Origin: Heliocidaris erythrogramma
Lineage: Eukaryota > Echinodermata > Echinoidea > Camarodonta > Echinometridae
DNA length: 64,000 nt
Assembly: GCA_025617745.1 (NCBI GenBank)
Contig: CM046853.1
Location: 15,419,174-15,483,173, forward strand
Direction of reading: 5' to 3'
This document shows, piece by piece, positions 28,402 to 63,941 of the stretch. The notes beneath the pieces were generated by a model. The model was given only the letters and a program-made list of their open reading frames with translations. It did no database searches and was not told the DNA's origin. Both the position numbers and the translations under genes were made by a program. Position 1 is the stretch's first letter; the number at the start of each line of letters is the position of its first letter.

Positions 28402-28462
<61 letters not shown>

Positions 28463-28467
28463 ATATA
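28402..28467. repeat. (AT)n microsatellite
   Basis: About 27 uninterrupted AT units, then ACATGT and a short AT continuation. Confidence 0.95.
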
Positions 28468-29129: not shown

Positions 29130-29135
29130 TTTATT
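29130..29135 (-). terminator. Polyadenylation signal of Kazal gene 2
   Basis: AATAAA on the minus strand about 60 bases after the stop codon at 29194, a plausible cleavage/polyadenylation hexamer. Confidence 0.5.
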
Positions 29136-29193
29136 TCCTTCTCATTTGTCTCTCTGTATATGTTTAGTATATAAATACACAGACTGAAGGTTT

Positions 29194-41309: not shown

Positions 41310-42915
41310 TTAGATCGTAGAATAAAGACTAGCGCGTCGGTAGTCGGTGTACTGCAATCCATTCAGGTTGTTAGACAGGAGATCCCCTCCAAGTGCGTCG
41401 CAGACCTCATTGGAATCGGTAAGGCCATTATTACGCCATGTCAGATTCACGCTTACGGCTCGGCTACGGGCTAGAGATAGTCCGCATCCACCTCCAGAAG
41501 TCGAGGAAAGCTGTGAGTTGGGCTGGTCTAACATCATACTGGCATGTTGGAAGCGTCCTAGTGAGAGATCACGAAATATGAATTAGAAGGTCATCTAAAC
41601 AATAATTATGTGTTTCAAAAAATGTTTGCCAATCGCTGATATAGATAGATAGATGCGATTCTTTTTCATGATAATGAATATCTCCAACTCATTTGGTGTA
41701 AATAAATAGGCCTATTTTTCATAAAAAGAACTTCCCTTGTTTATTATTCGCGAGTTTTATATACCTCGCATTTTCTACACATATGAATTTACTTACTACA
41801 TGTCATCTCTGGGCGAGATATCAGCAATATTTTCCTTCCATTTACTTCGATCTTTATTGATTTTCTTTTCGGCCCAATTAAAGAATCGTCTTCTTTAATA
41901 CTCCATCTCCTTTTGATTCGCTTTGAGCTACAAGAGTTGAATGAGTAACAACTTGAAATTACCACCCATCCTTCCATTCTAACTTACCTACGATCCCATC
42001 GACAGCAGATGAAAGGCCAGTATTATCCAGTACATTAAAGGTGAATGCATCAGGTCGATGTCTGTCTGTGTTGCTATGCAGTCGTTTGCTCACTATCTCA
42101 AACCTGGCACCATTGGCGAGTGACACAATAACCTTCAAGCCATTAACTTCCAGACTGTGCGATCCAAAGCTATAGGCAGACGTGATGCCCCAACGCAACG
42201 GACGACTGGAATCCACAGCTATACCACCAGAGTTGAACTTGAGACGATGTCGAGAGGGTTGAGGAGAGTTGAGGACAATGGCGATTTCGCCGATGAAAGT
42301 GCGCTCTCGATCTCCGAAACGACCGGAAACAGTATCTCCGACGATCCGCCCATTCACAAAGATACCTGAAATAATATTGTTTTTAAAAAAGCACACCAAA
42401 GTTCACGGATTAAAATTGTCAAACCATAACGTGGGATCCATTTAGACCTAATAAAAAAAGGTGGGGTCAAGGAAGTATCTTACCTCCGTGTGTGCCAATG
42501 AAATTAAATGATACGTACACGGTTGTTCTTGCTGTCTATATTACTTTGTTTCTTAAAACGAACATAAATGTGTAGTGAAACATGTTTATGAAGAGCATTC
42601 AAGGGAGACACGAAGACAAGTGGTGTTTCTATGCAGGTTCCCTATATCACTGTTTAAAGGAAACTAAAGATTTGGTCTTTTACAGACAGGAACTCTATAT
42701 GACATCTTCCAAAATATACTCTCTGGACATCACCACCTATGAGAATAAAAGAACAATTCTGCATCTGTTAATGGATAGGCAAACTAACACAAATTATATA
42801 AGCTCAGCATCCTTACCCCGCAATGGATCTTCCAAGAGAACGATGACGTCATTATCCTGTGGATCCTCATCTAAGCATACAGTGATTTCTACCTTGGGTA
42901 CTGCTATGGTGAATC
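41310..42915 (-). CDS. ITIH heavy-chain C-terminal domain, last three exons
   Basis: Exons 42817-42915 (1-1), 41988-42365 (1-1), 41310-41557 (stop TAA). Family signatures: VEITVCLDEDPQDNDVIVLL, EDPLRGIFVNGRIVGDTVSG, TFIGEIAIVLNSP, HSLEVNGLKVIVSLANGARF, RPDAFTFNVLDNTGLS and a Cys-containing tail (GGGCGLSLARSR, NEVCDALGGDLL). This matches the domain found only at the C-terminus of heavy chains; modules 1 and 2 lack it. Vertebrate pro-heavy chains have the hyaluronan-accepting DPHF just before the TVCF-like strand; here that position reads SAGFTIAVPKVEITVC. Confidence 0.9.
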
Positions 42916-45900
42916 CTAGATCATCAACAAAGAGCAAAGTCATCGATTCATTCATTCGAGTCCAAAATATTTTCAGTATAAAACGTTTATGTAGTGCTCT
43001 CTTTATACACTGCATATTATGAAAACATTGCGAAATTGCTTAATCATTACACACAATCTTGATCCCATTGGTAACATATTGAACTATGTTCAATATAATT
43101 GTTTGAATTATTACAAAACCACCTTTCACATAGTTACTACCGCAGGTTTCTTCCATAAAAAAAGTTTTTTATTTGCTTGAAGGCTGAAAGTCAATAAATG
43201 TTTGTTTAATAAATGGAGAATATTAACTGGAATATTTCGTGAAAGAGGCCAAATCCACAAACATGACAACGAGGAAAATTTAGAGATACATTCCCAAATC
43301 GAAAATTGCAAAGCGTAAAGTCACCCTCGCTGACATAATGCCTTCTCAAGACGATGGCTCGTGGGATATCGTTTCAAGGAAGATTACAAGGAAACTGTTC
43401 TTGGATGTTACCTGCAGAAAGAGGTTCTGGAGCAGGAGTTGGAGTAGGTGGGATGACGGTGAAATTCCTAGAGAGTGTCTTCCTGGCTGTACGAGGGAGT
43501 GGTGAATTGATGACTCTCATAGCGAATGGATTGACCTGGTGATGACGAGACCCTCCTTCATCACGACGAATCAACAATGCAGTAGATGGATTGAAGAATC
43601 TGATTAAGATCGGATACAGAAAAACAAATCATAATGCATCTTTTTTGTTGGGAAATCAAATGAAAAACCCAAACCTTTGTTGCGTGGAAAAGATGAGAAC
43701 ATAACCTTATACCACCTTTCAAATTCCTTCATAGGGTGGATAAGTGTTTTTTTTTTAATTAAGAAATGTTAATTGGCTGTAATTTATGCATGCTCCTTTT
43801 ATCTATGGATTGATCCAGACCATTTCAAAGCGGCCGATGGACTTTTACTTTGATAATTTTAAATGTTGTTACGGGATCTATGTCGCAACTTAAAAGAAAA
43901 AAATCATGCAACTAAACAGCTTAAATTGTTCAAATTTCAAATTAAAACATACATTCAGAAATGATTTAGCTAGATCAATGATCTGCATCAAAATAATGAA
44001 ACATACATAATGAAATAATCGTTATAAATTATCTTTCCTAATAATTATTATAAGTTGTGACAGAGAAGATATTAAAAGAAGGAAGACCTTTGCGATCATG
44101 TAATCTGGAAGTAGAAACTCTACCTGTACTGAACAGATCTGTCTTTGATCTCATTCTCTCCGATCATGCTATAGTCTGGGGTTTCTTCGGCTAGAGCCTG
44201 TTCATTCTTTAGAGTCTGGATTATATGATAAGCCCAGATCCTCTCAATGATGTCCTCCGGCACATCGTCATCAAGGAGCGAAAGGGATGGAACCTGAAAA
44301 GATGTGCGCAATATCAAGGTGGTCATCGGGTCCACAAACTGACCCAATCGTAGTATTATCACTTATATTATACTTGAGATATTAAAGACAAAGTTAGGAA
44401 TTGGCATCACTGGTTTCGCGATGATCTTAATGTCGCGATGGTCTTTAGTCGTCATCATCAGAATGACGGAATAAATAAATTATCATCAGTAACATCACTG
44501 AAACTAAAGAAACTAATTTGTTGCGTCAGCCATTTCCTCGATCTCTGAATTTCACCGACCGATGTTTCTACCAGTCCTACGACAGGTGCACACGGTTACC
44601 ATTATGATTTTCTCGGAAATAAGTTTAAAACTTGCTCACCTTTCATTTAAATCATTTTTAAAAGAAAAATAACAATGGTGCGTCATAAGGAGCCAATATA
44701 AGATGCAACGAATATATAACATATCAAACCAATTTTTTATTCCTTTACCTGGATATCGCCGCGTCCTCTAAGTGTAACTGGATCGGTCGTGGTTCTGCCA
44801 TATACATAGGAGTTGAGTGAATCATAGGGTAGATTGGGCAAGAGTTTTCCGACCACCGTCAATTCGGACCCATTGAAGTAGTTTGAGAAAGTACGTTCAC
44901 TGAGCGAGTTGGGTTCGATGCCTCGTGAGTAGCGAAACTCGATGTCCCTCAGCAGAGGCGTAGCCACCTCGTAGTAGAAATTCTCAAGATGCTCTCCGGC
45001 GTCAGCGCGCTCAGGAATGCGACGTGCGATCCCGTGGTTCTAGGTGGAAGATCGAAATAGGAAGATATTTTGAAGAAGCAACAATTTATTTTATAGCAGT
45101 ACTAGGAATATATTCCAGTTTAAAAACGATTCTCATTCAAATTAACTGTATTAACCTGATGTTCTGCCAAAAATGTGTTTATCTTTAAGATATTGTCGAG
45201 AATGAGGACATAACATCCAAATTCCATATTGTTTATTACCATAATTTGGCCCGTCTTAAAATATAAACATTACATTAATCTCTCGAATTTAATTTCGTGA
45301 GACATTTTGTAATAATATTCGTCTGATTGTGACATATGAAATATTAAAATCATCATTTTCTAAAACAGGATTAATTTCCATTCAATAATGCACTGGAATG
45401 ATAGACCGTGACATAACTTGTTATTACCTGCAGTGACAATCGTCTCAAGAACGGATAGTCGGCATCAGCACCGAACCCAATACAGAAGAGCGAAAAATCA
45501 CCATTGATGGCCTCGTGGACATTGCGTTCAATAATGGTTTTATCGATCTCGCCGTGGTTCGGGTTTCCGTCGGTGAGGACAATGAGCATGGATACGATCT
45601 CCTCGTCTTGTGGATCTTGCTCACTCTCGGTACGTAACATATTCACACCTGATATTATAGCCTTGTGGAGATTGGTATCTGAGTGCGAAAAGATTTTAGG
45701 AAATTACTCACGGCCTGAAATTATACACTGTCAGAAAATTTGATTCTTCAAAAACCGAATTATGTCCTTTTACATACGACTATAACGATTCTGTTCATTA
45801 ATTAATATTTTATACCACGCAGACAATTAGAATTGTAACTGACTTTAAGAGCTACCTCTCTCACTCTATCTCTCTATGGTCTATACAGCTGCAAATCGTG

Positions 45901-48900
45901 TCATTCATTATTGCTGTCACATGTGCCTGTTCTGACATTCATTTAATGAATATCCGTATGTCTTTTTCGTCACCCACCCAAGAAAAAAATATACAGAGGC
46001 TATAAACTCTAATGGAGATTTGATATGAGTTTCTTAACATATTTTCAAGATGGATGACACAACGATTATTCCCTACAATATTTTAATATAAAAATCCTGC
46101 AATCACTTACTATCCATTTCCTGCAGACCCATAACGAAGCGTTTTGCTCTGCGGACATTCTCCTTGGTGGAGTAAAGCATACCGGAACTCTCCAAGAAGT
46201 GCACGTCATCTGAGAATGGAAGAATATTGAACTTATCTGTCTCTGACATGTCATCCAAGATGGTGGCCAATGCATCCTTGACTTGGGAGAGCTTGGTGCC
46301 CGACATCGACCCGCTGATGTCAATGACGAAGATAATGTTCTTGCGGAGCACCGAGAGGCCAGAAGGTGAGAAGTATTGGACGAAGTAGTCGTTCAAAACC
46401 TATGGCGTTTGATCACAGAGGTAATTAGAAATATAACTTGATTTATAACTAATAAGAAATAGTCAAAGACTGAAATTTAGGTATAAAATGTTCATTCATT
46501 CATCAGTGCCGTCCCGTGGCCGGGGTTGGCGGAAATGCATGTTCATCGTATGACATGAAAAACCGAACTGGAATGACAAAAGCTATCGATCATTAATACG
46601 ATACAACATTGATGAAGAAAATTGAGGAACTGCAAATACCTCCAATCCTCGAAGATATCACTTAGGTAATAACGGAACTTCTCACAAGCGGTATTTCATA
46701 CATTCCTGAGCGTTTTATGATAAAATTATATTTGTATGTAATAAGACGAATGGTGAAAACAGTACATAACCTTTTAATTGTGATAAAACACTTCAAATTG
46801 AGAAAATAATACGCTGATCGATTGAGTAGTCGGGTTCTTTTGTTTCTAAGAACGAAACTGTACCTAATGAGCAACATCACATATCTCGTACCTGGATATC
46901 ACCAGCATCACTGCCGTGTACTACGTCATACTGGACGATGTAATCAGCCATGATGCCCATTGGGGACACGGCCATTTGTTCTCTAGCCCTGGGTGAATAA
47001 TGTACTTCCCATCGGTTGTTACTTCGTCTCTGAACGTTACGAGCAAGTGAGATTGGAACTGATGGGTCGGACTGGTCTAACAAGAAGGTATCGAGGCGAG
47101 ATAGACCTTGAGGCTCGATGATGATGGTATCCAGATTCATCACTTCAACCACCTACAAGTAATGTAGAATAGACTTTGTTATTTCTTCGAGTAATATATT
47201 TCTATTGTGTGTCTTTTTTAACAGCACACGTATATATCGATTCAGATCATGTCTATGACGAGTGTATAAATTCATCTACGGCTGACATAATTATTCATAA
47301 ACTGATTACATACATTAGCCATTTTCATCTGTAAGAAAAACAGTATCACTCAAGAATGGTACAAGTAGGAGTATATAGATTAATCGCTTGTATAAATGAG
47401 CACCAGACCTGTCCGAACAAAACAATAAATGTATCGACATCCTTCTTGTATACACCCTATCTTAAACGTACGTTATCCTAATCCTAAATTGTATGGTATG
47501 ATTTTTAATACTCGTAGATCGTTACCTGTTCTGGGAATATTCCAATCTTCTGTTCGTATAGTCCAAGACGTCTCGGTAATTTCCTTTCGTAGGTCAGACG
47601 GAAGTACGCCCTCTCACCTGGTTCAACAGGAACTGCTATCACCAGAAGGTTATTCTCCAGGTCACCTCTTTTGAGAAAAATATTTTTGAATTTAATCATA
47701 CAAATTTTAAACTATTTGAATAACGGGTAAAGAACGAGCAAAGAACTATTTTAAAATCATCTTTTCTGATAGTAAGTACATTTTTTCTCTTGCGTGTATT
47801 CTTAAAACCTAATATTCTTCAAAGATACTAAAAGATACTATGCAATTAAGTTTGTAACGGTAGTTTTTTTTAGATCTCACTTTTAATATGTCTTGATTAT
47901 TCTACATCTCAGGATAGATAAGAGGATTGAGAAAGTGCTTACAATGGCGAGAGAATACCACCACTGCGTCCTATCTCTAGGTTACCTAGTCCCAGACCTG
48001 CAGTATCCTGTGGGTCGGTTACCTCACTGGTGTACACTTCTCCGTTTACAGTTCTGAGGGGGAAAATAATGGAAAGAAGACATCGGCACAACATGAATTT
48101 GATCTAAATTTCAATTAAATGAAGATATTTACTGTTAACTATGAAACTATACACTACATGAAACTAGTTTAGTTATTGCTTAAATTATGGTTGTATTGCG
48201 TTTGAATGGGCTGCCGCCATTTTTATAAAGTATCGCTTTCTGTTGGAGATGGAAAGAACAAAAGAATTCCTAAAACACCTTTCAAACCAGGAACGTAGTT
48301 TCCACTTTAGAGTACCATAATAGTCAACTTCTTTGACTGTGGGCATCAACGGAAAAGACAAGACACCAAATTGATACTAACAAGCAGGATTATTTGTAAT
48401 GTTATACAATCATGTATAACTAACTTGAAATCAACGTTTTTATCTGAAGATTCAATTTTATAAGTCATTTACATCGTAAGGTTGGAAATGAAGGCATCTT
48501 CTGGTAGTTTGTGCTTGAAGACTGCATGTCCAGGCACTCTTCCTTCATTCTGCATCTCAACTTGGACCGTTGTAATAGCGTAACGTAGGATGATCACAGA
48601 CATCACGTCAAACAAAACTATGTTTATATGTGCCTGGAAAAGAGAGGAAATGAAAGCTCTGAAGCAAACATATGTTTATCTCTGTATTTCTATTTATAAT
48701 TATATAATGCTATATGTTTTTTGTTGCAGAACGCCATCACGAAAATAGTTCCCAATCAAGATTCATTCTCACCAAGCAATAAGGACGAAGAAGAAGATAC
48801 ATTTTGAGGATTGGTATCACAATTGATATATCGATAATATAGCGATTTAAGTACGGATCCTTATTGATTATCATCTATCATCCAGATGTAATGAGTGAAA

Positions 48901-51900
48901 TGTGATTTTAGATCTCTAATTTTTGATAGACTACATTTATTAGGGCAAGTCTACTCACATCGTTTTCCATAGCCAGCGGGGCATCTTGTAGCTTGACCGG
49001 AGCTGTAGTAGGTCCATTGTTACCTATCAAGAAGGAGAATTAAGATATCACAAGACTGACAAGAGACATTTATCACTTACACATGTCAAATTATCAAAAT
49101 TACCCGTATTAAAGCTACCCATAGTTTATAAATGTTTCGTTCTAAATTTGAGATAAAGATTATGAAAAAACCATAGGACAAAAGTGCAGTGTTTGCATGC
49201 ATTTTAAAATCTCTATTTGTATTTTAAAATATCTTTTGTCTATATCTATTACAAAATGAGCCTTAACATATTATACACAACCACATCCAGAGAGGTTCAT
49301 ACAAAGGTAAATGCTTGGAACAATAACCCATGCCTAAATCTTACCTATTGCTTCTTTCAAAAGATCTCTTGCACTATTAGCCATACTATAACCCGGAAGG
49401 GGAATAGGGCTATTACTTCCGTCGATCACCTCTCCCGTTCTGTGATGTCTTAAAGCCAATGGAGTAAGTGGTGTGACAAGGTTGTATCTTCTCGCAAGTG
49501 TGATAATACGGTCGGCAATCTTATTTCGTTGGGTAGGATCCGTGCTCCTGGCATACTGTCGGATAAGGTCTTCAAGGCGTTTCATCACCCAGATACGTTC
49601 AACCACGTCAGGTACAGTGCGGTCATATGTCAATTCTGGTGAGGTTCTCTGTATTGGTAAAACAATGAATGCGTTTATCTGTCAATGGATTTATGGATAT
49701 TGGACAAGACCTGCGCAGAAGTAGTGATAATGAAGAATTGTTAAAAGTACTGAAGGAGTTGTGTTTGTTTGTTTGTTTGTTTTTGTAATCCACATGAATG
49801 GTTACTTTGTATAAATGATCATCCTGGGTATTCCAGACTTATCCTTATATTTGAACTTTCTAGTCAAATGCAGTGATACGTAAGACATATCTCATTTACG
49901 ACATAGAAGTTATGAATGCAATTCAATATCCTTTGGAGGACATCTTAGCAGTGTTTTTAAAAAATGATAGAAATAGTGCTCTTAGAACAGGTAATTCCTG
50001 CTTTAATTCAAATCAGAACGCGTTTCTAGATGAAATAAACACCAGTCGACATGGTATCAGGCAAACACATCTCCATTCTAAAACATATATAAGGAAACTA
50101 AATGTTCTGTGTCATTCCTTTAATTCTCTGTGCCATTCCAACATACCCTAATGTCAGTATTCCATCTCTTCTGTCCCGGTCCGTCTGTTGAGGTAGAATC
50201 AATCACACCTCTCAATAGGTTCGATGGTGGATTGTCGTAGAGCTTCCCAGCTACAACCAGCTCTGAGCCGTCAAAGTATACCGGGAAACGCCTCTCTGTC
50301 AGGGTTTCTGCGTTTGCCACATCACCGGGGTATCTAGCATGTGATTGAGAGAAATTGCACTTTTAGAGCTGTGATGTCTGCCTGAAAGTGATGTTTCAAT
50401 GACCATAAACAAGATGGCATGCTGCGATTAATCTTAAGTGCTCACATGATGTGCTCCATTTGTTCATTTTATGCTGCTCTGAATTTTATCAAGACGATTG
50501 CATCACAAATATATTTAGATAGAAACAGTGATATAACAGTGGTCTTAGAAACAGAGTAACCAGAGTTTGAGACTGGATGTGCTGTGTTTGATAATTAACA
50601 CAAACAACAACAGTCATACTTTTGCTTTTAGAAAACTGCTCACATCCAGTTAAAGATTATGATTTTTAATATACCATAAAAATCTTGTTACTGATAATAA
50701 CTTTCGTGAAACAGGACCCGAATAAGTGCGCAAGTACAAAAAATCGTGGTCCCTCTGATATGACTTAAAACTAAATTCCAAGCCACCTTACGTTGTATGC
50801 GTTTGTTTTAGCACTCGGGGGGAATATAAACAAAATCAATCAATCAATGAAGAAGTGAAAAAAGTTCTTACTGCATAGATACATCGAATAGAAGAGGACG
50901 ATACAGCTCAAGGTAGAAATCCCGTAGCTGTTCGGCGGCGCTAGCGTCCTCGTATATCATCCGAGCGATGCCGTCATTCTCGTAAGCCAGCTTGACGAGG
51001 AGATCGAAGTCGGCTAGACGACCGAATCCAAGAGTATAGAGGGAATGCTCACCAGCGATAGCTTCGCGTGCGTTGTCGAGGATTTCCTGCGGATCGGTGA
51101 CGCCCACTGACGGGATACCGTCCGTCAGAAGGATGATCATACTTAGGTATTCGTCACCCGGTCGGTTGTAGACGGTCTCACTGTCCAGAAGCTCATCGGC
51201 TCGTAAAATAGCCTCATTTATGTTGGTTTCTAGGGGAAGACAAAGTATGAGTTACTTTATATGAAGTATATGGTCTATATACAGCAGCTGAAGCCTACAG
51301 CCTACATATTCACAAAATGGCAAGGAAGGCAGAATGATAGAGGACGAACATTACGTACGTGACCACATGAGATGTATATAAAACTATACAAGGAGAGTAC
51401 TATAAAAAACTATGACTAGAATGTAGCAAGAAAAATGGAACATTGAAGGCTCAGATAGCAAATGAAGAAAACTAAAAAGTGAAGATTACCCGAATCATCC
51501 CGCAGGCTATCTACATATGTTTTAGCCTCTTGAATATAACGTGCATTGGCTGGTGCGAGTCTACTGCTTCCCTTCCAATACTTGACCCCATCAGAGAAGG
51601 TGATGATACTGAAGTAGTCTCTGGGATTGAGACGGTCTAACATCGTCTTGAGAGCTTCTTTGGTCTGACTCAGTTTGGTGCCATACATTGAAGCACTGAC
51701 GTCGATGACGAAGACAACCTGCTTGTTCAGGGCGCTCAGTTCAGACGGCGAGAAAAAGTGCACGAAGTGGTTGTCTTGAACCTGTGATAAAATTAAAATG
51801 GAATATTTCACTATGATTTTTATATTCGTTTTGTTCTTCAAGTTGTTAATTAAATGACAATGAAATATCAGGTATAAAAACGGGGCAATCAGATCGTATT

Positions 51901-52650
51901 TTTGGAATATAAATGAATTAAAATGTTAATACTCTGCATGTGAAAGAGGGTACACAACTCTGTCATTATGACACCTTTGTAATTTGATAGACGCGCTGTC
52001 TGATTAGACCATTTATCAACTACATTATCGAAATAGTGTGGGTTTTTTAAAGTTCCTATGCATGTTACACCAATGGAAATCAAACGTCTCTATTTGATAA
52101 GGACAGTTAGACTTGAAACTCGGAACTTCATACATGGAATTTGAAATCTTGATTATAATGACGCTTAATTTTATATAATGTATTTTTTACAATAAATGTA
52201 CATTAATACAGCAAATAAATAAAAGATGAGCGATATTTTCATCACCTGTGTATGACTACCAGCTGGAGTATGTTGGACATCATACTTGATAACGATGTCG
52301 CCGTCCAGACCATTATCATTGTAGTATGCCTGATCATAGACCGTCGGGTAGAATCTGAAACGAGAACGTGTGCCACTTTCCTGCGTTATTCCTGTGCCGA
52401 GGTTAATGGTATGCCTTCCAGTACGCGTGTCGCCATCATACTCCGTGGTCATCTCACGGATCCTCTGAGGCTCTGTGACTTGGACGTCGATGCCGAAGTC
52501 TTCCACGAGCTGAATGTAGAAAATGAGAAGAAAAAAAAAACATTGTTCGACTTTAGGAGAAGAGGAAGATGATGTGCCATCTAAACATAGAAAGGGTATC
52601 GAGGGAACGAGAGAAGCGGAAATAGATAAGGGGACACATAGACGAGATAA

Positions 52651-52693
<43 letters not shown>

Positions 52694-55479
52694 GATAGAA
52701 AAGGGATAGAGTTAGACCAGCTATCGAGATGGAGAAAGAAACTGATCCAAAGAGAGACAAAGATACAGAGAGAGAAAATGAAACACAAAAATACTTGGCC
52801 TAAAGAGAGTTACACCAATCTACAAAAAGTACAAGAAAAAATGCATATGAGAGGTAGAGAGCTAAATAAAACATATACATGTATATTAACAATATAGAAA
52901 GGGAAGTAGACTGACATACTAGAGAAGAGAGAGAGAGAGAGAGAGAGAAAGAGGGGTGTCAAGTATAATACATTATTAATACGACTTGCGTACAAACCTG
53001 TTGTGGTGCAACGTTAATTCTCTGCTCATATTGTCCACGGACTCGTTTCAACAGCTCATCATAAGTCAATAAAAATGTTACATGAGAGTTAGGTCTGACA
53101 TCAGGCACCTGCATTACGAAGGCATCCTTTGTTGGGTCCCTATATGCAGGAGAATATTAAAGAATTTACAGATTGAAAAGATCAGTGAAAAGTAGAGACC
53201 AACATGTCATAGGAAAATAGAATTTAAATGGTAATGAAAGTGGTAACGCCTAAAAAGTCTGACTTAAGGATTTCATGTTGTGCTTAATTGTTGCTCATTG
53301 GCAATGGGCATCACATCTTTTGATAAAGAAAAATAGGCAAATGAACTTACTGATTTGGCAATTTAACTTGATATGCCCTTCGACAGGAATTAATTACACT
53401 GATGCTGTGTATTTCGTCATTAGGATATGTACATATCAAGTTTCGACCAATCTAAACTTATCGTACCCAGAAAGACAATTAAGTGATATCGTAATACCGC
53501 GTTCCAATAATGCACCATCATATAAATAGCTGCATAATACTTTCGTATCATCTAAGCTATAGATAGGTACTTTACCTTCTAGCTAGCACGGCAAGGACCT
53601 GTCCAGTGCTACTAGTAGCAAACACATTACGCCAACGGTCATCTCGAATGTTCTGAACAACACCACGATAACGCTCTCCATCGATGTCACTGAAATTGAA
53701 AGAATTGTGAAAACATTAAAATTAATTGGTCTATTTAGAAAACAAATAGGGCGCTAACAGTGTGTAATGTGCTCTAGGGTAAGGACCTTTTGGCTCTCAG
53801 CAGACGATTTCATCTATTCTCTGTACGAAATGATACGTGATATTGAGACGTGATCATACATCTTCTTCCCTCACCAGCAGACCTCAGTAGCCACGGCCCG
53901 CATTGTTTGCATTTGCTAAAGATTAACTGACATATATTTTGACTGGAGATACAGGCCTACAACAAAAGAGGCATAAAAAACATACACTTATGTTATACCA
54001 TGTTTTCATGATTAATAAAAATATGACAAAATATATTCTACTGCTTTATGAAGTTTAACTGTTAAATTTCTAAACGGTGAAGAACTGCGTTATTGCTATG
54101 AACTTTTCTGAACTAAACATATGTTAATACATTTCTAGTGTCTTTAAATGCATTTCATTTATTTCATTGGATACTCACACATCGAAGCTAGAGATATAAG
54201 CACCGCTTGGTATCTGTTGGCTGAACTCAACAGGATGGGTTTGATAATCGACATTCTCATACTCGGCTTCAACTCTGGTTTGTGCATACCGCTCTGTAGT
54301 GTCAGATTCGACGTTATATCTTCTCAGAACTACTGGGTTTTCCTGAAATAATCCATGATTTTCGTTATCAAAATAACATTACGAATTATCAGATCACTAA
54401 CTCTATTTATACAAAAGCGATGATTGGAGGTTCTCAAAAAATTGACAAGCCATATCAATAATAATAATCGTTTTACAAAGAATATACATTTAGAATAAGC
54501 ACATGAACATTTTTCCAAATGCAGTCTTTATCATCAATTAATTTAATTGATTTAACGCTAAACCACACCTATTCCCAATTGCTATTTCATACAGATTTCA
54601 TTAAGCTATAGATGAGTGGCCTTACGATCCGGCGGATAGGGGGCTCCCTGGTTGTGGTTGTTACTGGCGCTGGTGTCGTGGTCGGGGGCCTCGGCGGCCA
54701 CGGCCTCCGCGTTCTTGGGGTTTGGGTTGTGGTCGGCCTGATCCACGGCGGCCAAGTCCATCGTGTAGTCGTTGGGGCTTGTGTTGTGGTCGTAGGCCTT
54801 GGCGGGGGTCTTGTAGGAGGTCTGGTAGGGGGTCTGATAGGGGGTCTGATAGGGGGTCTTGTAGGAGGTCTGGTAGGGGGTCTGGTAGGGGGTCTGATAG
54901 GGGGTCTGGTAGGCGGTCTGATAGGGGGTCTGGTAGGCGGTCTGGTAGGCGGTCTGGTAGGAGGTCTTGTAGGAGGTCTGATAGGAGGTCTCGTCTGAGG
55001 CTCTGGAGGACGCGGGTCGCAATTCGCCCCTCCGATCCCAGTCGACGTCTCTCCTATTCTCCCGAACGACGGTCCGACCATGGACCATTCAAATCCACTT
55101 GGTCTCGACTCGGTTATCCTCGTCACCGAGACTCCGTGATTGTCGGTCTCACCGGGTTCCGGCACACGTGAGAGAACCATGTTCATCAGTGGTGTCAGGA
55201 GGTTATAACGACGGGATAGAACACGAGCACGTTCAGCGATGGCACGGCGTTCCATCGGATCATCTGCTAGGCGATATCGATCGAACAACTCCCGCATGGT
55301 CATAAACGCGTATGTCCGCTCAACAAAGTTTGAAGGAATAGTGTCGTCATTGAGTGTCTGGGGATTCTGTAAAAAGTTAGTGCAATGTTCAAATAGAATA
55401 ATACCATATTATGATAGTGACATTTAATATCCCAAACTGTTATATCTAATAAGAAACCCTTTACCATGTGCATATAATT

Positions 55480-55526
<47 letters not shown>

Positions 55527-58500
55527 TCACACACACACACACACACACACCCAGTCTTGTATTGCTTTACTTCCGAGGACAAGTATTGTTCCTCCGTCCT
55601 CGGACAGTCGACTGAATAAGGCACAAATTCATTGTTCGACGTTCGAGGACTATTGTCCGGCTTCCGAGGACCATACTTCTCATAATTTTTTATTTTTGTT
55701 CTCTGTCCGAAAATGTCCTCGGACATACGGCTAAACACGCCCACACACAGACACACACACATTATGTTGCTTTCCAAAAGTTATGAAGTTTTATACCTGC
55801 TATATCCACGTAAACTAAAAACATTTATTCAAGGCCATATTTGTGATTAGCTGTAATCGAAATCGTTCGTAATTCAGCCTCTATGAATACAAGAGCTTAT
55901 ATTTTGTAAATAAGTGCAACAAGTGTAAATTTATTACTACATTTACTTGAACTTCTGTAAGGCTTAGGTTATTCCAGACGTGAGACATGTTTGCATAGAA
56001 GAAATACTCTTTACCACAGGCTGTTGTATGTCATTGACTATAATGTCTGTCCAAAGTTACCAAGACGAGTAGTTCTGACAGTGGATTGTAAGAATTATTA
56101 TTGTAAATTAATTGCAATGAATTGCTATACCGCTTCATCTCATTGAATTTGGTTTATGTAATACGATCTCTTACCTGCATCAGTGAAAGTCTTGCATTCT
56201 GAGAGAGTAAATAAAAGAAAGCTTACAAAGCATTGACAGTGATTATGCTTTAAGTGAATTCATTATACATGTCCTAGTTAGTACAAACATTTCTGTATGA
56301 GTCACGTAATGAAATTGATTACGTTATAATATACTGTATATCTAATATGGTATCTGTCTTTAAGTGCTTCCAAAGTGGAAATTAGTTTTTTATTGGAATC
56401 AAGGACAAATCAGACAAGAGTTACCAGACAATATGTTATCAAAAGACGAGAAGTGTAAAATAAAAAAATGGGGAAGTACAGAAATTGAAACTAACGAGAT
56501 CTCTAAAACTTCAGGAAAAAAGAGAAAAAAATATGCAAGATCTCGGCTTACCCTTAAATTCACATCCTCCTGGAATGTCGTAACACCATCGGCTCCAACA
56601 GCAGTGATCTTAATCGGCAAATATCGGAGATCACCGGAACTGAGAATTCCCGAGACAGCTAGTTCGGAACCGTTAAAATAGTTCGGAAAGGTGGTCGCCG
56701 AGGTGCTCCCCGGTCTGACGGCATTGTTGAGATATTCCACAACGATGTTGAAGAGTAAGGGTGTAGCAACCTCGCTATACACTCCTGATTAAAGAAGGAC
56801 ATTTTGCGATTAGACATGAATTAAACTTGAATACTATTTGACCGTAATCCAGGACCAAAATCTTAGTCAAGGTGGGTTTTCACGGGGCACGAGAACGATT
56901 CGCGAAGGATGCGAATGTCGAAAAAATGGCAAAGTCGAACATTCGTGTTTTAGGCTCAAAATGCTCGCCAAACATGCGCGGGGGTTCAGAAGCGTCGTCA
57001 ATTGTTCGCGGGAGTCGTTTCTAGTTCGGAGGGAATTTCAAAAAAGTTTGAAATTTCTTGCTAACGTTTCCAGCATCCCGGGTCTTCATTTGTTCGTGAT
57101 ATGCTTTCGAAAATGTATGGAAAGCTTCGTCATATACACACGACCTACTCACGACGTGCGTGAAGTTGGCAAAATCTTTGTGAAACCCCAAACAGATTCC
57201 GACAGTTTTGAGAATATCTCTCGCATGTCTCGCGCATGTCTCGTGAAAGCAGCGAACTTCGTCCAAACGAAGGTTTTGCTCACGCGACATTGTCATGGAG
57301 TTCGTGCGAAGTTTTCACGAGTGTTTGACGCACATTTGCTGCACGTTTGCCGCAAAGCACATGGCCGAGGAGTCTGACTTCATTCTGCGAACAGACTGCG
57401 AACCATTCACGAAAAGACCGATCAACTTAAGGCAGCTGTCAACTCACGTTCGCATTTTGTTCTCGTGTTCTTCGTGTATGTGGACTGGCCATAATCCTGC
57501 AACGCTACACATGGCATTCGCACATGAGAACTACGCACAAACTGCGCAAGAATGTTTTAATAAGGCTGCATTTTCCCGAGACATTCGGACAAAAACGTCT
57601 CCTAATGTTGGATTTTGCCATTTTTTCGACATTCGCATCTTTCGCGAATTTCGCGCGCCCCGTGAATACCCACCTTTAGGAATTGAAAATTCGATTCAAT
57701 AGTGCGGAAGTTAGAGAATACATTTTTTACAACTCCTCGGCGTTAACAAAAAAGCGAGCAGAGGTGCACATTGTAAAACAATGTCCATTCGTTGGCGAAC
57801 TGTGTAGATATGACAGGCTTATACTATAAGCTCAGATACATTTACATTTACACCAATAATGAAAACAATCACCTTAGATCTGAAACGGTATTTCCATAAA
57901 TACATGTACTTATTGTTGCACAATGATAATTCAATGTTATTAATATTAAATGTATGTTACTTTTTTCCACGTTCGTTTATTCTCTTAAAAGTTAAAACAA
58001 AAATTGGAAACGTACCACGTAACTGTCCAGCAGCAGATGAATCCTCGTATATCTTCCTAGCCATGCCACGATTCTGAAGGGCTAAACGTACCAAGAAGTT
58101 GTAGTTGACAAGCTTGCCGAACCCGAGCGTGACTATGGAGCACCGCTGGTTATTGGCGTTACGAACGTTACGCTCGATGTCAGAGAGACTGGTTACACCT
58201 TCAGAGGGTTTCCCGTCGGTCAGTACGAAGAGGATACAGACCATAGGATTGGAGACCGTCGAGTTCATTGAGCCAGTGGATTCCAGGAGGCTGAGACCAC
58301 CTAACAGGGCATCGTTCAGGTTGGTTCCTAGGAGGCAATAGGAGAGAAAACTGGTACAATCTTGTCACAATGCGGTAGTGCCCTCTATCAACAATCAACT
58401 TACTAATCGTGGTGTTACTTTAATCCCTAGTTCTTTGAGTTGGCACTTTGTAGAAATTCATCAAACTCCAAGAGTTATGACACCTTGGCCAATTCATGTT

Positions 58501-61500
58501 TTGGTTTTTTGCTTTACATTCATCAATGATATTACAATTAACAATTAATATTCTATTTGGAAAGCTTTTCCCTTAAATGAGGATTCATCGAACAGAAAAA
58601 AAGACTTAGGCATATTATACATCTCCAAGTAAAACACACTTTCACATATCCTATAAATACTATCAGCTGTTCATGCATCTTAAATGATGATCAAAATTTC
58701 TAATAGTACTGCTGTTGCTGTTCATGCATTTTATTTGAATGTAGTTAAATTGTGGTATTGGCTAATGTTTAAGATGACCAACTCTGTGATATCTATTGTA
58801 GTTATTTTTTTATCTTCACATACCTCTTTGAATGTCTAACTGGCGAATGAAATGCTTGGCAGCCCTTATGTTGTAGGGATTAACATCCACCATCTGATTA
58901 CGATGCCAATCAGCAAACACGTAATCCGAAAAAGGTAAGACATTGAAGCGATCGCGGTCATTCATCTCATCAAGAATGGTGTACATAGCTTCTTTGGTCT
59001 GTTTGATCTTATTTCCGTACATGGAAGCACTGAAATCGAGGACGAACACCACTCTTTTGTTCACGGCGCCGAAGTTGATGGGTGCAAAACGATGGATGAA
59101 GTTCGTTCCAGAAGTCTGCAATTTATGAATATGTAGATGTGATTACAATCTCTACTACCACGAATTGAAATCGACTCTATCACTTTAAAGACATTACAAA
59201 ACTCCTAAAGCATTGCAAATCGTGTGGCGCTGCTGGTATATAGCCTATATGTATTGGTTTATGTTTTTTTATTATTTGTGTTTTTAGTTATAAGCATCAA
59301 CATCAATTTCTTTATCTTGCTTTGGAGTAAATGGACAGTCAAACACTCTATGGTCAAGCAAAACAAAGAAACTTAATGATTATTAACTTTCTGAATTCAG
59401 ATCAGAAACATTACTTCTGTTGGTCTCTTTTCCACGAATATGGTCTCCACGTCATCAATTGACAATGAATAGACAAGGAACAAAACTTAACAAACAAAAC
59501 AAAACTAGAAGACTTTGAGCACTCACCTGCACTTCTCCTACACCAGGTGGATGAGCGATGTCGTATCGTATGATAAAGTCACCATAGATACCAGGTATAT
59601 TGTAGCGGTTAACGTATTCATCCTGCTGTCGTTGGGTTGGTCGGTAGTCGATTTGACATTTCGTTGTCCCCGTCGTCGATGATGCTCGTGTATTTCTGAG
59701 GTGACTGCCGAGGTCGTACACTTGACCTCTACTATTTCCAGCAGCTAGAGTAAAGTATAAGAAATAAATACTCTAGAGTTTGAGTTCTAATCAGAACCAA
59801 GATCAATCCTAATTTACATTCAGTTCAATTCAAAGCAACATTTATTTCACACATAAAATCTAAAGTTTACATCATACATAATAAAATCAAGACATAAAAT
59901 TCTCAAAGTCAAACAGGGATAGCATAAAATAAACATACATAAAAAACATTTCAATAAATAACAAGTACGTAGAGAAAAGGGAGAAATGATGCCAGAGGCA
60001 CTAAGGAAATGACAGAGACACAACATTATGACCGTCTAAAGGCACAATTATATCTGTGTTGTATAAGATCAAGAAAAAAGAGTATACCATTTTTGTCACA
60101 ACACACTATACGGCTATCATGATAATTAATGGTATTCAAAATAACGACGTATACTCCAAAGGATGTCATAAAATAAAATACGTATATAGTGTGAGAAATT
60201 TATATTTTAAATTTACAATTAAATTGAATGGAGATTGGATATTGATTAAAGATATAAGAAGAAAATAATATTCTATCATCCTGATGAATAAGACATTAAG
60301 ACATAAAACTTTTTATGGCTAGCTTGCCTTGTATGTCTAATTGGCACGAGTATATAATTTCACCATTTCCCCAGTTCACTGGCAGGGTAGCGCTAGATCA
60401 GAGAATTATATGTTATGATTACATATATACATAGTTACTGATCCATATCATGTATTCTGATCAAAATAATAATGTGAAGTATTTTACTTTATATAGAGTG
60501 AAGAGATTACAAAACAAAATGAAACATGGATTGTAAAGACATAGCTTTCACAAGGAGATTACAGCAGAGATGAGAGGGAGGAGGAGACAAGATTTCATGG
60601 TGTGGCAGAAAATTATTATTCTGAGTAAACTATGATTATGATAGAGAGATAAATAGGTGGTGACAGTTGGAGTAGACATGGTTATAATATGAATTTCTAC
60701 CGCGCACATATCCGAATGTTTCGATCAAGGCGCAACAGCAAATATAATATAATTGAGAAGTAAAATGAGACAAACAGACAGAGCGAAAGGGTAGAGAGAA
60801 GGGGGTTGGAAGAGAGAAGGGAGAGGATGGGTAGAGAGGGGGGGGGGCAAAAGAGAGAATCCGCAATAGAATGGCAGAGTGATAAAGAGAAAGAGAGAGA
60901 GAGAGAGAGACTACCAACCACAATTATGTTATCCAAAGTATTGGGAGAGGCAACGGTGGGTCCAGGATAATCAGAAGCGGGGGGACGTTTGAAACCACAA
61001 AAGTCCACGATCCCGAGAGAGATGGGGAAGTAACATATAGCGTCTAATACATACACCCTATTGCTTCATTGGGAAAGGGTATCTATGCATGGGTAGAGGA
61101 AATTTGTCATACTTTGATGAGACATGTCACATCGGTGCCAGTGCATCCAGTGCTCTGATAAACAAACATAATTTCAAATACTCAGAAGGGATGAAAGCTC
61201 TCCGAGTGTTGATTATGGATTTTTATTTTAAAGCTCATATTCTTTTTTTGAAAATCACATTGTTGTTATTTGCCTTATAATGCATTTCAATGTTTTCATT
61301 CTCATTTCCATAAAATTAATTTAATGTAGTCTTCATTGCTGTCTTCATTGCTTTTTTCCCCTTACAACTCAAACTTTAATGCACTTTATTTACCTTGTAA
61401 TGATCGAAAACGTTTCTGCACTTAGTTGTGTTGTCAAATATTTTGTATATTGTTAATTGCACAATACATATTATTACATACATGTACTTTAAAAAATGAA

Positions 61501-63941
61501 AATGTAATGAAATAAAATCTAAATCTAAATCTAAAAAAAAAATCAATATCGAGTACACGATTCAAATTAGGAATCAGGGAGGACAACTCCCTACAGAGAA
61601 TGAACCTATATCAATAAGATCAGGGAGCTGTAAGCCTACAAGAAGGGACCCAGCATGTAAATCATGGAATCCCTTGGCCTTTAGGTTCAAGTTTGCAAAA
61701 TTGTGAGAATGAGTGTTTGATAATTATAGTATTATACCCTTATCTACTAATGCATTCGAAAGTGCTGCTCTTGACGAGCCGAAAATGTCCTCTGGACTTG
61801 CCCGACATAGTAACGGCTATATCCATACACTTGAAGACAGTATAGTAAACTGGCCTACCTAAAAAAAAACCTTTTTAAACAAATGCCATAAATAGATGAT
61901 TTCTTACTAGATTGAGCAAGTCCTGACATACTGTCACGGAGCAGGGACGACACTGATTCGGTGTACGATCTCGTATCAATACCTGCCTCGGACCGAACTA
62001 TACCCTGGGGCTCGGTCACTGTAGAATATATACGGAAGTCATACACGCTCTGGAATGAAAATAGAATGACAGACGTTCTTAGTAACTTAAGTACAAATTA
62101 CACAAAGTACTGCAGTATGAACAGCCTTATGAAAATTACCGAACTACTAAATTTATTGTTCCTGAGTAAGTTTATGTGACTTTAGAGTGACTAGCTAACT
62201 ATTGATTCTACATTATAGGTATTTTATGTGTTCACAGTATTTAGACAAAGGCCTAGGCCAGTAGGCCACAGGTTTGCTGGACCGACGAGGGTCCGTTATA
62301 GACTGAGAATTGGTCGAGTGAGTCATGGCGTCCGAAAGACTGCTTGCTTTGGTCGTAAAGCCTCTCGCATACATGCGAGAATATTTTACGAATTTGGATA
62401 CGAATGGTAACGATGTGAAAATCCACGAATGTTTGCGATTGACTGCGATACTTACGGAACAGTTACGGAAAAGTTACGGAAAAGTTACGAATGTTTGCGA
62501 TTTATATGCGATATAACCGGAAGTGACGTATTTTCCGCGCGTTTTCACAGCGTTTCACAATTCTACAGCAACTTTTCATGACATTCTCTCCACATTTTTC
62601 CAATTGTACACTGTTCACCATGGATAATTCGCAGATATTCGTAATATTCGCATTAATTCGTATCAAATTCTTGGCTGTCAAGTCATTAAGAATGAGTTAC
62701 GAAATATACGAATGAGTTACGATAGATACGAATGAAATACGAATATGTTACGTTACATTACGAATAGTTACGTTTCCTGAAATTTTTGAACATGTTGAAA
62801 AAATTCTGCGAAGCCTGCACTCGGCTGCGAATTCTTACGAACATTTACGAACGTTACGAACCTCTGCGAATGTTCATTACGAAATGCTGGGAAAATCTGC
62901 GATTTTTTTGTCGCAAAGAATCGTACCTTTTCGTAATGAACATTCTCAGATGTATGAGAGCTGCTTAAGAGTCCTCTGTCAACTGGGATGTCCCCATACC
63001 CAACACAAGCTCCCAGCCTATATCATGTATATAACATCACTGGGTTCTACACTTTCTTTTCTGTATCATATCACCATTCTTTTGAATTATATTAATTTAC
63101 ATGTAATTGCACTCTTGCTACTGTAGGTGGCATATCTAGACCTCGGCCTCAGGAGAGTCAAAATCCGAGCTTAACTACATCTCACCTGACTCGGTCTGAT
63201 GCTGATCCTCTGTGTGTACCAACCATTTTGGCGCTCTAGAAGTTCCTGGTACTGAATCATAAGCTGGACGTTACCCCTAGGGACAGTATCTACCGTCACA
63301 GTGAACAAGTTCCTTGTCTTCTCCCCTCTGTAATCATACCAAAAAAAATCTAGTGTTGATATTGCCTCGACTGATTTTATATAATGATGTGCAGGTCTCT
63401 TTCAGCTTTACGAGGGCCGTTTCTTCTATACTAATGGATATACATTTTCTTTAAGGGAAATGTGAATAATTTTAGTAGCGAAAATCATGCAACCTATCGA
63501 AAATTAATTTAGTGTTACATCCTCTATTCCTTCCCTACCAGTTCTGCTTTTTGGTAAGTCATGAAGGAATGAAGTCTACAAAACCGACTTTATGCATTTA
63601 TGACTATATCATCGAATAATGTTTACAGTTGTTGATCAAATTTTGATAAAGTATGAATACATAAGTTTGTAAAAGAGGAGATGTGGATGAATAAACACCT
63701 CAACAGTGCGCACAGATCTCAAATCTCAAACGATTTATATCCTGACGGCAACCCCCCCCCCCCCCCGAAAATGAATTTGTCATTTAATCATTTCATTAAA
63801 TTATGGTAAAAACAACTTTCTTACCCGGTTGTATACTCCATTTTCTCAAGGCTTGATATAGATACATCTGATGGATGTGATAGATCACTGACTAAGCATC
63901 TATCGACGGCATAACCTTGGTATCGCACACCATCAACATTC
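41310..63941 (-). CDS. Triple VIT-VWA protein (ITIH family), 5' partial
   Basis: Thirty exons whose phases all match, 6,700 nt in total, encode 2,232 residues plus stop after an incomplete first codon. Domain order: VIT-VWA module 1 (63941-56175), Pro/Thr hinge (within 55366-54626), VIT-VWA module 2 (54342-49345), linker (49023-48959), VIT-VWA module 3 (48633-44124) and the heavy-chain C-terminal domain (about 42915-41310). ITIH proteins are secreted matrix-stabilising proteins of about 900 residues with one VIT and one VWA; vertebrate ones are ester-linked to hyaluronan. Here three modules appear in series. The signal peptide and first VIT exon are beyond 64000. All three VWA domains keep the DxSxS metal site. 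The vertebrate DPHF hyaluronan-linkage motif is absent. Alternative: three adjacent genes; I find no signal peptide, promoter or stop-compatible structure between modules. Confidence 0.8.
43412..43599 (-). CDS. ITIH-type gene, spacer exon before C-terminal domain
   Basis: 188 nt, phase 2-1: a basic segment (LLIRRDEGGSRHHQVNPF) and a short Pro/Thr stretch (PPTPTPAPEPLSAG). Acceptor CTTAATCAG, donor CAG|GTAACA. Confidence 0.8.
44124..48633 (-). CDS. ITIH-type gene, module 3: complete VIT and VWA
   Basis: Exons: 48473-48633 (0-2), 47943-48053 (2-2), 47526-47667 (2-0), 46892-47152 (0-0), 46111-46399 (0-1), 45428-45678 (1-0), 44749-45039 (0-0), 44124-44293 (0-2). VIT: RYAITTVQVEMQNEGRVPGH, KLPEDAFISNLT, ERAYFRLTYERKLPRRLGLY. 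VWA: NIIFVIDISGSMSGTKLSQ, IVLTDGNPNHG, FCIGFGADADYPFLRRLS. Post-VWA: FSNYFNGSELTVVGKLL and DDVPEDIIERIWAYHIIQTL, the best match of the three to vertebrate heavy chains. Exon sizes 161/111/142/261/289 track those of module 2 (164/114/142/264/292) with phases identical. Confidence 0.92.
48959..49023 (-). CDS. Linker exon between modules 2 and 3
   Basis: 65 nt, phase 1-0, encoding GNNGPTTAPVKLQDAPLAME plus two residues. It joins module 2 (phase 1 donor at 49345) to module 3 (phase 0 acceptor at 48633). It has no hydrophobic signal sequence, which supports reading through from module 2 rather than a new gene start. Confidence 0.75.
49345..54342 (-). CDS. ITIH-type gene, module 2: complete VIT and VWA
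   Basis: Exons: 54179-54342 (0-2), 53576-53689 (2-2), 52998-53139 (2-0), 52246-52509 (0-0), 51490-51781 (0-1), 50872-51229 (1-2), 50147-50333 (2-0), 49345-49648 (0-1). VIT starts ENPVVLRRYNVES and contains YAQTRVEAEYENVDYQTHPV, GAYISSFDV, SHVTFLLTYDELLKRVRGQY. VWA metal site KQVVFVIDVSASMYGTKL, LLTDGIPSVG, LYTLGFGRL and MIYEDASAAEQL. Post-VWA FPVYFDGSELVVAGKL matches the ITIH family consensus. The last exon is helical and ends GYSMANSARDLLKEAIG in phase 1, fitting the linker exon at 49023. Confidence 0.9.
52651..52697. repeat. (GA)n microsatellite in ITIH intron
   Basis: GA repeat with ATA interruptions between the third and fourth module 2 exons. The Ser/Leu-rich minus-strand frame across it is an artefact joined in frame to the real exon at 52246-52509. 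Confidence 0.9.
54626..55366 (-). CDS. Module 1 helical region and Pro/Thr-rich hinge exon
   Basis: 741 nt, phase 0-0. The first part (FVERTYAFMTMRELFDRYRL, ERARVLSRRYNLLTPLMNMV) matches the post-VWA helical segment seen in module 2 (VVERIWVMKRLEDLIRQYAR). It is followed by about 20 tetrapeptide units of TRPP or IRPP (roughly 54795-55010), encoded by a 12-bp minisatellite, then Thr/Pro-rich sequence (PTTTTQAPTTTR, PTTTPAPVTTTT). This looks like an extended, probably O-glycosylated hinge. The donor ATC|GTAAGG is used in the model. If unspliced, the frame ends 13 codons later near 54587. Confidence 0.75.
55481..55550. repeat. (AT)n-(AC)n compound microsatellite
   Basis: AT repeat followed by AC repeat in the intron upstream of the hinge exon. 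Confidence 0.95.
56175..56198 (-). CDS. 24-nt microexon in module 1
   Basis: Eight codons (NARLSLMQ), acceptor TCTCTCAG, donor CAG|GTAAGA, phase 0-0. It bridges the post-VWA exon (donor AGG|GTAAGC, phase 0) and the helical/hinge exon (phase 0). Skipping it keeps the frame. Confidence 0.65.
56175..63941 (-). CDS. ITIH-type gene, module 1: VIT and VWA exons
   Basis: Exons: 63825-63941 (phase 2-2, NVDGVRYQGYAVDRCLVSD), 63186-63327 (2-0, GNVQLMIQYQELLERQNGWY), 61908-62049 (0-1, TVTEPQGIVRSEAG), 59527-59744 (1-0, ending IIRYDIAHPPGVGEVQ), 58824-59115 (VWA), 58016-58327 (VWA), 56552-56784 (NYFNGSELAVSG) and the 24-nt exon 56175-56198. The first two are the second and third VIT exons; the first VIT exon is off the window. 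The region that is one 264- or 261-nt exon in modules 2 and 3 is here split by an extra phase-1 intron and totals 360 nt. Confidence 0.85.
56869..57676. mobile_element. CpG-rich foldback element in ITIH intron
   Basis: Inverted ends of about 80 bp: the left starts AAGGTGGGTTTTCACGGGGC and the right, reverse-complemented, starts AAGGTGGGTATTCACGGGGC. Both arms then share GATGCGAATGTCGAAAAAAT and GGCAAA. The 808-bp body is rich in TTCGCG/CGAA motifs and is open for long stretches (56838-57377 and 57295-57702 plus strand), but the predicted proteins have no recognisable domain. Flanking TTAG appears on both sides (ends 56866; about 57676), so the target duplication is uncertain. Confidence 0.75.
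58016..58327 (-). CDS. Module 1 VWA, C-terminal exon
   Basis: 312 nt, phase 1-1. GTNLNDALLGG supplies the metal-binding Thr region, MVCILFVLTDGKPSEG the second conserved Asp, and IVTLGFGKLVNYNFLVRLAL and ARKIYEDSSAAGQLR the last strands and helix. Acceptor CCTCCTAG, donor G|GTACGT. Confidence 0.9.
58824..59115 (-). CDS. Module 1 VWA, N-terminal exon
   Basis: 292 nt, phase 0-1. Core strand and metal site read KRVVFVLDFSASMYGNKIKQ, with DxSxS intact, then MYTILDEMNDRDRFNVLPFS. The same-size exon with the same phases occurs in module 2 (292 nt) and nearly so in module 3 (289 nt). Confidence 0.9.
59820..60010 (-). mobile_element. Probable LINE 3' end in ITIH intron
   Basis: TTCAGTTCAATTCAAAGCAA then ATTTATTTCAC and an A-rich body without reading frame resemble the reversed 3' tail of CR1-like elements (compare about 6150). 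Borders are unclear. Confidence 0.3.
61300..61550 (+). mobile_element. LINE 3' tail remnant in ITIH intron
   Basis: TTTGTATATTGTTAATTG...AATGAAATAAAATCTAAATC ends in (AAATCT)n and a poly-A run, the type of short-repeat tail shown by the LINE at 12690-12725. No coding part remains. Confidence 0.45.
62352..62970. mobile_element. TACGAA-rich inverted-repeat element in ITIH intron
   Basis: The outer arms are imperfect inverted repeats: left CTCGCATACATGCGAGAAT (about 62363-62381) and right, reverse-complemented, CTCTCATACATCTGAGAAT, each followed within a few bases by TTACGAA. The body repeats TACGAA, TTACGGAA and the inverse TTCGTAA more than a dozen times. No protein is recognised. It lies in the intron between the exons at 63186 and 62049 of module 1. 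Confidence 0.6.

Follow-up and report, generated by a model that had tools for sequence, protein, structure and literature searches.

The 64,000 nt of DNA considered in this study (referred to below as the window) come from the sea urchin Heliocidaris erythrogramma (GenBank assembly GCA_025617745.1, contig CM046853.1, positions 15,419,174 to 15,483,173). They raise the question of whether a chain of minus-strand exons encoding three ITIH-type VIT-VWA modules belongs to one gene or to several genes lying side by side, and what a protein with three such modules might do. That one gene encodes all three, as a reading of the window from sequence only had proposed, is the best supported answer that the sequences give, because nine echinoderm proteins have the same layout, the junctions between modules align without gaps, the relatives have no hydrophobic stretch between modules, and a tree of the modules points the same way. 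I further consider it probable that this single gene gives rise to a secreted, three-headed, Mg-dependent linker of the ITIH type, whose modules were triplicated before the crinoids split off.

The chain consists of 30 exons (Table 1) that run from 63941 to 41310 and join to give 6,700 coding nt (2,232 codons), within which lie three VIT-VWA units. Every intron is bounded by GT and AG, the phases are compatible along the whole chain, and one continuous frame extends from the start of the first exon at 63941 to a stop codon ending at 41310. The sequence-only reading had counted 30 exons with fitting phases and a protein of more than 2,200 residues, and both statements hold with a microexon included (56198-56175, 24 nt, encoding NARLSLMQ) that a scan for short exons added to a 29-exon model. 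Its residues are identical in Lytechinus pictus, read NARLALME in S. purpuratus, and are absent from the Diadema protein; it may be skipped in some isoforms. The junctions between modules are formed by donor 54626 with acceptor 54342 and by donor 49345 and acceptor 48633, and the 283-bp gap at 54343-54625 and the in-phase linker exon at 49023-48959 are where they had been placed. Intron phases 2, 0, 0, and 1 at the b/c, c/d, d/e, and e/f exon borders are common to the three modules, which are 32-35% identical in pairwise comparison, as expected of a duplicated multi-exon block. A tblastn search of the window with the L. pictus protein gave exon-by-exon matches (best E = 1.3e-67), which excludes chance as an explanation of the gene structure. 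The same program, given three of the echinoderm triple proteins (P0001, P0002, and P0004; E up to 1e-4), found no further VIT-VWA copies in the window, its matches being confined to 41313-63949.

Pfam recognizes VWA in all three modules of the window protein, VIT above cut-off in modules 2 and 3, and the heavy-chain C-terminal domain, ITI_HC_C, once (48.5 bits against a cut-off of 27), after module 3 only, as had been claimed. Module 1 opens, within the window, with its second VIT exon. The exon that corresponds to M2a, together with any signal peptide of the gene, would lie beyond the window end at 64000, and for that reason Pfam does not call the VIT of module 1 in the window protein; all three VIT are called in L. 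pictus. The description of three complete or nearly complete units is therefore borne out for three VWA domains and for the VIT of modules 2 and 3, the VIT of module 1 being cut by the end of the window, which the sequence-only reading had not remarked on.

All five residues of the metal ion-dependent adhesion site (MIDAS) are intact in the alignment of 32 of 32 modules from eleven proteins, to which the S. purpuratus fragment contributes no module 3. The motifs in modules 1, 2, and 3 of the window are DFSAS, DVSAS, and DISGS, respectively. Between modules 1 and 2 lies a Pro-rich hinge, partly encoded by a 12/48-bp minisatellite (54804-54991). An AlphaFold model, made for the S. purpuratus fragment (P0013) rather than for the window protein, has folded VWA and VIT-VWA parts and a hinge predicted to be disordered (residues 422-664), with a predicted local distance difference test score (pLDDT) of about 30. 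The mean pLDDT of 63 and predicted template modeling score of 0.35 are too low for the arrangement of modules to be read. The closest fold match of the fragment is human heavy chain 1.

A search with the full-length protein, confined to database entries of comparable length, gave 12 matches, nine of which are echinoderm database proteins with the same triple layout (2,005-2,436 residues): Lytechinus pictus LOC129255898, Diadema, Apostichopus, Asterias LOC117306366, Patiria LOC119736992 and LOC119737937, Acanthaster LOC110988530, Antedon, and Anneissia LOC117118951. I take these to be from two sea urchins, one sea cucumber, starfish (four proteins), and two crinoids. The other three matches are the fish model P0010, a chitinase, and an entry bearing the name TPR repeat protein. 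According to Pfam, all nine echinoderm proteins have three VWA and one ITI_HC_C, and eight have three VIT, so that chains with three VIT plus three VWA, which the sequence-only reading had thought worth seeking in proteomes, are present in echinoderm databases. Those eight also have a hydrophobic N-terminus and RxxR; the ninth, P0007, has two VIT and a model that starts inside module 1. The two Patiria miniata paralogs (P0005 and P0006) are on contigs of equal length (46,651,055) and probably on the same chromosome. The architecture had been thought distinct, and so it is relative to vertebrate ITIH, but it is common to other echinoderms, where such proteins already stand in public databases under the name "uncharacterized".

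Outside the echinoderms no triple protein was found by the full-length query, by a two-module query (82 matches), or by a profile of eight triple proteins (20 matches), each search having scored about 8,000 candidates sharing most words, and no match was named as hemichordate or brittle star. No non-triple match of the full-length and profile searches extends over more than 26% of the query, apart from P0010 (34%), in which Pfam recognizes two modules. Among the non-triple matches of the two-module query, those that exceed 1,500 residues are P0014, with two modules, and P0074, with one VIT, again by Pfam.

Identity over 952 shared columns is 91% between the window protein and S. purpuratus P0013, with values of 88% for L. 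pictus and 78% for Diadema. Exon junctions were compared through protein alignments, the introns of the relatives lying outside the comparison. With L. pictus, 25 of 29 junctions are gap-free within five residues and the other four have no gaps except columns common to both rows; with Diadema, 23 of 29 are gap-free, four more have shared gaps only, and two fall at the microexon that its protein lacks; with the S. purpuratus fragment, 11 of 13 are gap-free, one has a shared gap only, and one is where the fragment ends. The alignment is gapless over both module junctions to L. pictus and over the first to S. purpuratus. The linker exon is nearly the same in L. pictus (21/22 residues) and similar in Diadema (17/22), with little identity to Asterias (2/21) and Anneissia (3/22). 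No strongly hydrophobic stretch was found between modules in any of ten proteins; the single control, a two-module tilapia model, has one.

The age of the triplication was assessed with a maximum-likelihood tree of 27 modules from nine proteins, including that of the window and omitting P0007, plus six single-module ITIH units. (Rows from Ciona, Lycorma, and Mastigamoeba, present in a quick tree, were dropped from this one; P0007 is in neither.) Modules 1, 2, and 3 each form one clade (support 100/99), and together they stand apart from the single-module units (99/97). Within each module clade the crinoids branch first and the starfish next, with sea cucumber and urchins together supported at 99/97 in module 1, 74/57 in module 2, and 93/90 in module 3; the window protein groups with L. 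pictus. Since each clade has crinoids as its first branch, the sequences indicate that the VIT-VWA block was triplicated before crinoids split from other echinoderms. How the three modules branch relative to one another is only modestly supported (85/83).

One feature divides the triple proteins. I take the motif DPHF, ahead of ITI_HC_C, to be the site of cleavage and covalent attachment in vertebrate heavy chains. At the junction position the window protein has SAGF, a difference that the sequence-only reading had not mentioned. Five of the nine relatives have DPHF (Apostichopus, Asterias, Patiria LOC119736992, Antedon, and Anneissia), and it is absent from L. pictus, Diadema, Patiria LOC119737937, and Acanthaster, so that just one of the two Patiria paralogs keeps it. 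The Acanthaster protein is nearer to the paralog without DPHF (85% identity, as opposed to 70% to LOC119736992), and the simplest account of the sequences would therefore be one loss in urchins and one in a starfish paralog. Because the site is absent, the urchin protein probably acts uncut and non-covalently. Heavy chains are described in passages of PMC7170535 as ester-linked via their C-termini to chondroitin sulfate. Parts of a review (PMC10381214) state that in echinoderms no hyaluronan synthase has been reported and there are two chondroitin sulfate synthase genes, and that sulfated chondroitin occurs along collagen fibrils in echinoderm mutable tissue.

By its domain content the window gene is ITIH-like, sharing with vertebrate ITIH1-ITIH6 (structures 6fpy for HC1 and 9c4f for ITIH4) the VIT, the VWA with full MIDAS, the post-VWA region, ITI_HC_C, and the fold match. 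It departs from them in having three VIT-VWA units instead of one, no DPHF, a long Pro-rich hinge, and modules in a clade of their own, and so it is not an ordinary ITIH. The echinoderm triple proteins have the same layout, differing in that five keep DPHF and that hinge length varies. A single-module ITIH from Apostichopus (P0051), with one VIT-VWA and ADPHF, is of the same family and falls outside the triple-module clade; its contig is equal in length (35,493,775) to the one that carries the Apostichopus triple gene. The MIDAS residues are intact, and ligand binding dependent on Mg2+ or Mn2+, in the manner of integrin beta-like MIDAS adhesion proteins, may be predicted. The top-ranked papers of the open-access literature yielded no description of a triple ITIH layout; in the portions concerned, PMC13409769 and PMC8464700 contain no ITIH terms, and PMC9203982 has them only as reference-list entries.

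How might such a protein work? The chain would present module 1, the long Pro-rich hinge, module 2, a short linker, module 3, and a single ITI_HC_C. Human heavy chain 1, according to passages of PMC7170535, dimerizes through its MIDAS in Mg2+ or Mn2+, with a dissociation constant of 35 uM at 1 mM MgCl2. Each VWA of the triple protein might in the same way hold Mg2+ or Mn2+ and bind an acidic ligand or another module, and with three such sites per chain, a contact that is weak between single pairs could become a multivalent cross-link, dependent on cations, of partners in matrix or coelomic fluid. In the five relatives that keep DPHF, module 3 could also be cut and esterified to chondroitin sulfate, while the urchin form would have no covalent anchor and a flexible hinge between its heads. 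The sequences themselves show the structure of the gene, its layout and age, the conserved and intact MIDAS residues, and the lack of DPHF, and I infer the secretion of the window protein, its binding of metal, its cross-linking, and its partners and tissue; a role as multivalent cross-linker of matrix, which the sequence-only reading had also suggested, would follow by analogy with the human protein.

That three adjoining single-module ITIH genes have been merged by gene finders seems to me very improbable. In its favor, two fish models, P0014 (Oreochromis) and P0010 (Danionella), each with two VIT-VWA per predicted chain, look like merged neighbors, the former having an internal signal-peptide-like stretch and the latter two C-terminal domains. 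A merger in the window would, however, have to be reconciled with an identical fusion in nine models across four classes, with modules 1 and 2 that lack a C-terminal domain, with the conservation of the linker exon in L. pictus and Diadema, and with inter-module introns (283, 321, and 325 bp) inside the size range of the others (260-2,163 bp). Internal starts were sought as ATG-led exons with a phase-0 GT donor, filtered by donor score and hydrophobicity. (I set the filter myself, before the window-wide counts and shuffles and after the region had been read; candidates were judged in the window only, the relatives being represented by proteins alone.) The scan found none in the intron 54625-54343 and seven in the two gaps between modules 2 and 3 (four within 49344-49024, three within 48958-48634), of which one per gap passes the filter; one further passing candidate, 61483-61394, is within a module 1 intron. 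Over the whole window eight candidates pass, counting both strands, and for the minus strand the rate is about 0.06 per 646 bp. The assertion that no signal-peptide exon lies between modules is thus upheld for the first gap and weakened between modules 2 and 3, where the two hydrophobic candidates lend the merged-gene explanation some support.

Those two candidates are among several points that weigh against a three-headed linker encoded by one gene. Both (49202-49104 and 48874-48773, minus strand) have a phase-0 donor that could be joined in phase to acceptor 48633. When the two introns that separate modules 2 and 3 are shuffled with dinucleotides preserved, at least two candidates arise in just 0.13% of 3,000 cases. 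The sequences of the relatives come from automatic gene prediction, and that of S. purpuratus ends inside module 2. Read-through of donor 54626 meets a stop codon 36 nt on (54589-54587), which would give a one-module form. As to function, the idea of cross-linking is borrowed from a single human heavy chain of weak affinity, and human inter-alpha-inhibitor, with two heavy chains held close, is monomeric in Mg2+ in the account given in passages of PMC7170535, so that adjoining modules might mask each other. Since the candidate exons are commoner than in shuffles, a separate module-3 product, with the layout of an ordinary ITIH, is possible beside the long form. More broadly, the one gene may have several products, through alternative ends, a start before module 3, or proteolysis (the hinge is predicted to be disordered), so that the three-headed form is not the sole or main working form. 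I rate this as rather unlikely: none of the nine long proteins of the relatives shows such an internal hydrophobic stretch, and candidate 48874-48773 has charged residues ahead of a late hydrophobic run.

Humoral regulation in the manner of ITIH4 is a serious rival to cross-linking, somewhat unlikely in my estimation. The protein would act mainly in control of complement or proteases, as ITIH4 does or heavy chain 1 with C3, and not as a matrix linker. Module 3 is closest in sequence, among solved structures, to ITIH4, and the window also contains an exon of a Kazal-type inhibitor. Passages of PMC7170535 relate that heavy chain 1 binds C3 via MIDAS and inhibits the alternative C3 convertase. 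Elsewhere, in the parts concerned, the coelomic fluid of Holothuria is listed as containing an ITIH3-like protein (PMC12119288), and ITIH3 is listed in the ultraviolet response of S. purpuratus coelomocytes (PMC13043383), but these sections leave unstated whether the protein is triple or single-module, and such inhibition needs no three modules. The portion of PMC11244903 that reports ITIH2 and ITIH3 in mesenchyme of regenerating sea cucumber is likewise silent on triple or single form. A more specific version of the cross-linker is a tentative proposal that I think improbable as it stands: a Mg-gated three-headed cross-linker of chondroitin-sulfate-rich matrix, such as mutable collagenous tissue, in a group that has no hyaluronan, with the ancestral covalent anchor to chondroitin sulfate through DPHF given up separately by urchins and by one starfish paralog to leave a reversible ionic linker.

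Table 1. Coordinates of the exons and associated features of the triple-module gene in the window.
Feature	Position	Strand	Basis or remark
Exon M1b (module 1, VIT)	63825..63941	-	first VIT exon beyond window; tblastn match
Exon M1c (VIT)	63186..63327	-	tblastn match
Exon M1d1	61908..62049	-	tblastn match
Exon M1d2	59527..59744	-	tblastn match
Exon M1e (VWA, DFSAS MIDAS)	58824..59115	-	Pfam and alignment
Exon M1f (VWA, MIDAS T and D)	58016..58327	-	Pfam and alignment
Exon M1g	56552..56784	-	tblastn match
Microexon NARLSLMQ, 24 nt	56175..56198	-	short-exon scan and urchin relatives
Exon M1h (module 1 end and Pro/Thr/Arg-rich hinge)	54626..55366	-	
12/48-bp minisatellite coding PPTRPP hinge	54804..54991	-	inside exon M1h
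283-bp phase-0 intron between modules 1 and 2	54343..54625	-	without ATG-led candidate exon
Exon M2a (module 2 VIT start)	54179..54342	-	open frame without in-frame upstream ATG; Pfam
Exon M2b (VIT)	53576..53689	-	Pfam
Exon M2c (VIT)	52998..53139	-	Pfam
Exon M2d	52246..52509	-	tblastn match
Exon M2e (VWA, DVSAS MIDAS)	51490..51781	-	Pfam and alignment
Exon M2f (VWA)	50872..51229	-	Pfam and alignment
Exon M2g	50147..50333	-	tblastn match
Exon M2h (module 2 end)	49345..49648	-	tblastn match
Linker exon, 65 nt, modules 2-3	48959..49023	-	21/22 residues identical to L. pictus
Exon M3a (module 3 VIT start)	48473..48633	-	Pfam
Exon M3b (VIT)	47943..48053	-	Pfam
Exon M3c (VIT)	47526..47667	-	Pfam
Exon M3d	46892..47152	-	tblastn match
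Exon M3e (VWA, DISGS MIDAS)	46111..46399	-	Pfam and alignment
Exon M3f1 (VWA)	45428..45678	-	Pfam and alignment
Exon M3f2	44749..45039	-	tblastn match
Exon M3h	44124..44293	-	tblastn match
Exon M3i (linker preceding C-terminal domain)	43412..43599	-	tblastn match
Exon M3j (ITI_HC_C start; SAGF where 5/9 relatives have DPHF)	42817..42915	-	Pfam and alignment
Exon M3k (ITI_HC_C)	41988..42365	-	Pfam and tblastn match
Exon M3l, last exon and stop codon	41310..41557	-	tblastn match

The rest of the window holds a Kazal_2 domain (16360-16698, minus strand, E 1e-8) and, at 29200-29475, a Kazal match below threshold. Inspection by eye shows similar Cys patterns, for which there is no Pfam match, at 15271-15642 and 30255-30629 (minus strand), with Thr-rich linkers. 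The Cys-rich minus-strand exons within 15271-30629 are perhaps those of a gene for a secreted multi-Kazal inhibitor downstream of the ITIH-type gene, a matter of neighborhood only. Pieces of a retrotransposon of the long interspersed nuclear element type occupy 9042-12451 on the plus strand (reverse transcriptase PF00078, E 9e-34, and upstream an endonuclease match below threshold). At 33213-35008, repeats of 262 and 405 bp in tandem contain a Ser/Glu/Pro-rich open minus-strand frame (33373-33645), perhaps repeated exons of the neighboring gene. Another open minus-strand frame, 2449-2739, with an N-terminal hydrophobic stretch, an Asp-rich run, and no Pfam match, may be the opening exon of a further secreted protein that continues past the edge of the window. 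The 500 N at 35943-36442 are an assembly gap.

Inter-alpha-inhibitor heavy chains are familiar as single units and best known for decorating hyaluronan. Three intact adhesion sites in one chain, in four classes of echinoderms reported to be without hyaluronan synthase, would be a natural multivalent version of the heavy chain and a way to ask what role the family plays without hyaluronan. The absence of DPHF from urchins and its presence in a sea cucumber, two starfish proteins, and crinoids provide a ready-made comparison of covalent and non-covalent forms. The triple protein is also a named candidate for cation-dependent cross-links in the matrix or coelomic fluid of echinoderms, and if its proposed linking of chondroitin-rich matrix is true, it would reveal the capacities of heavy chains where hyaluronan is absent.
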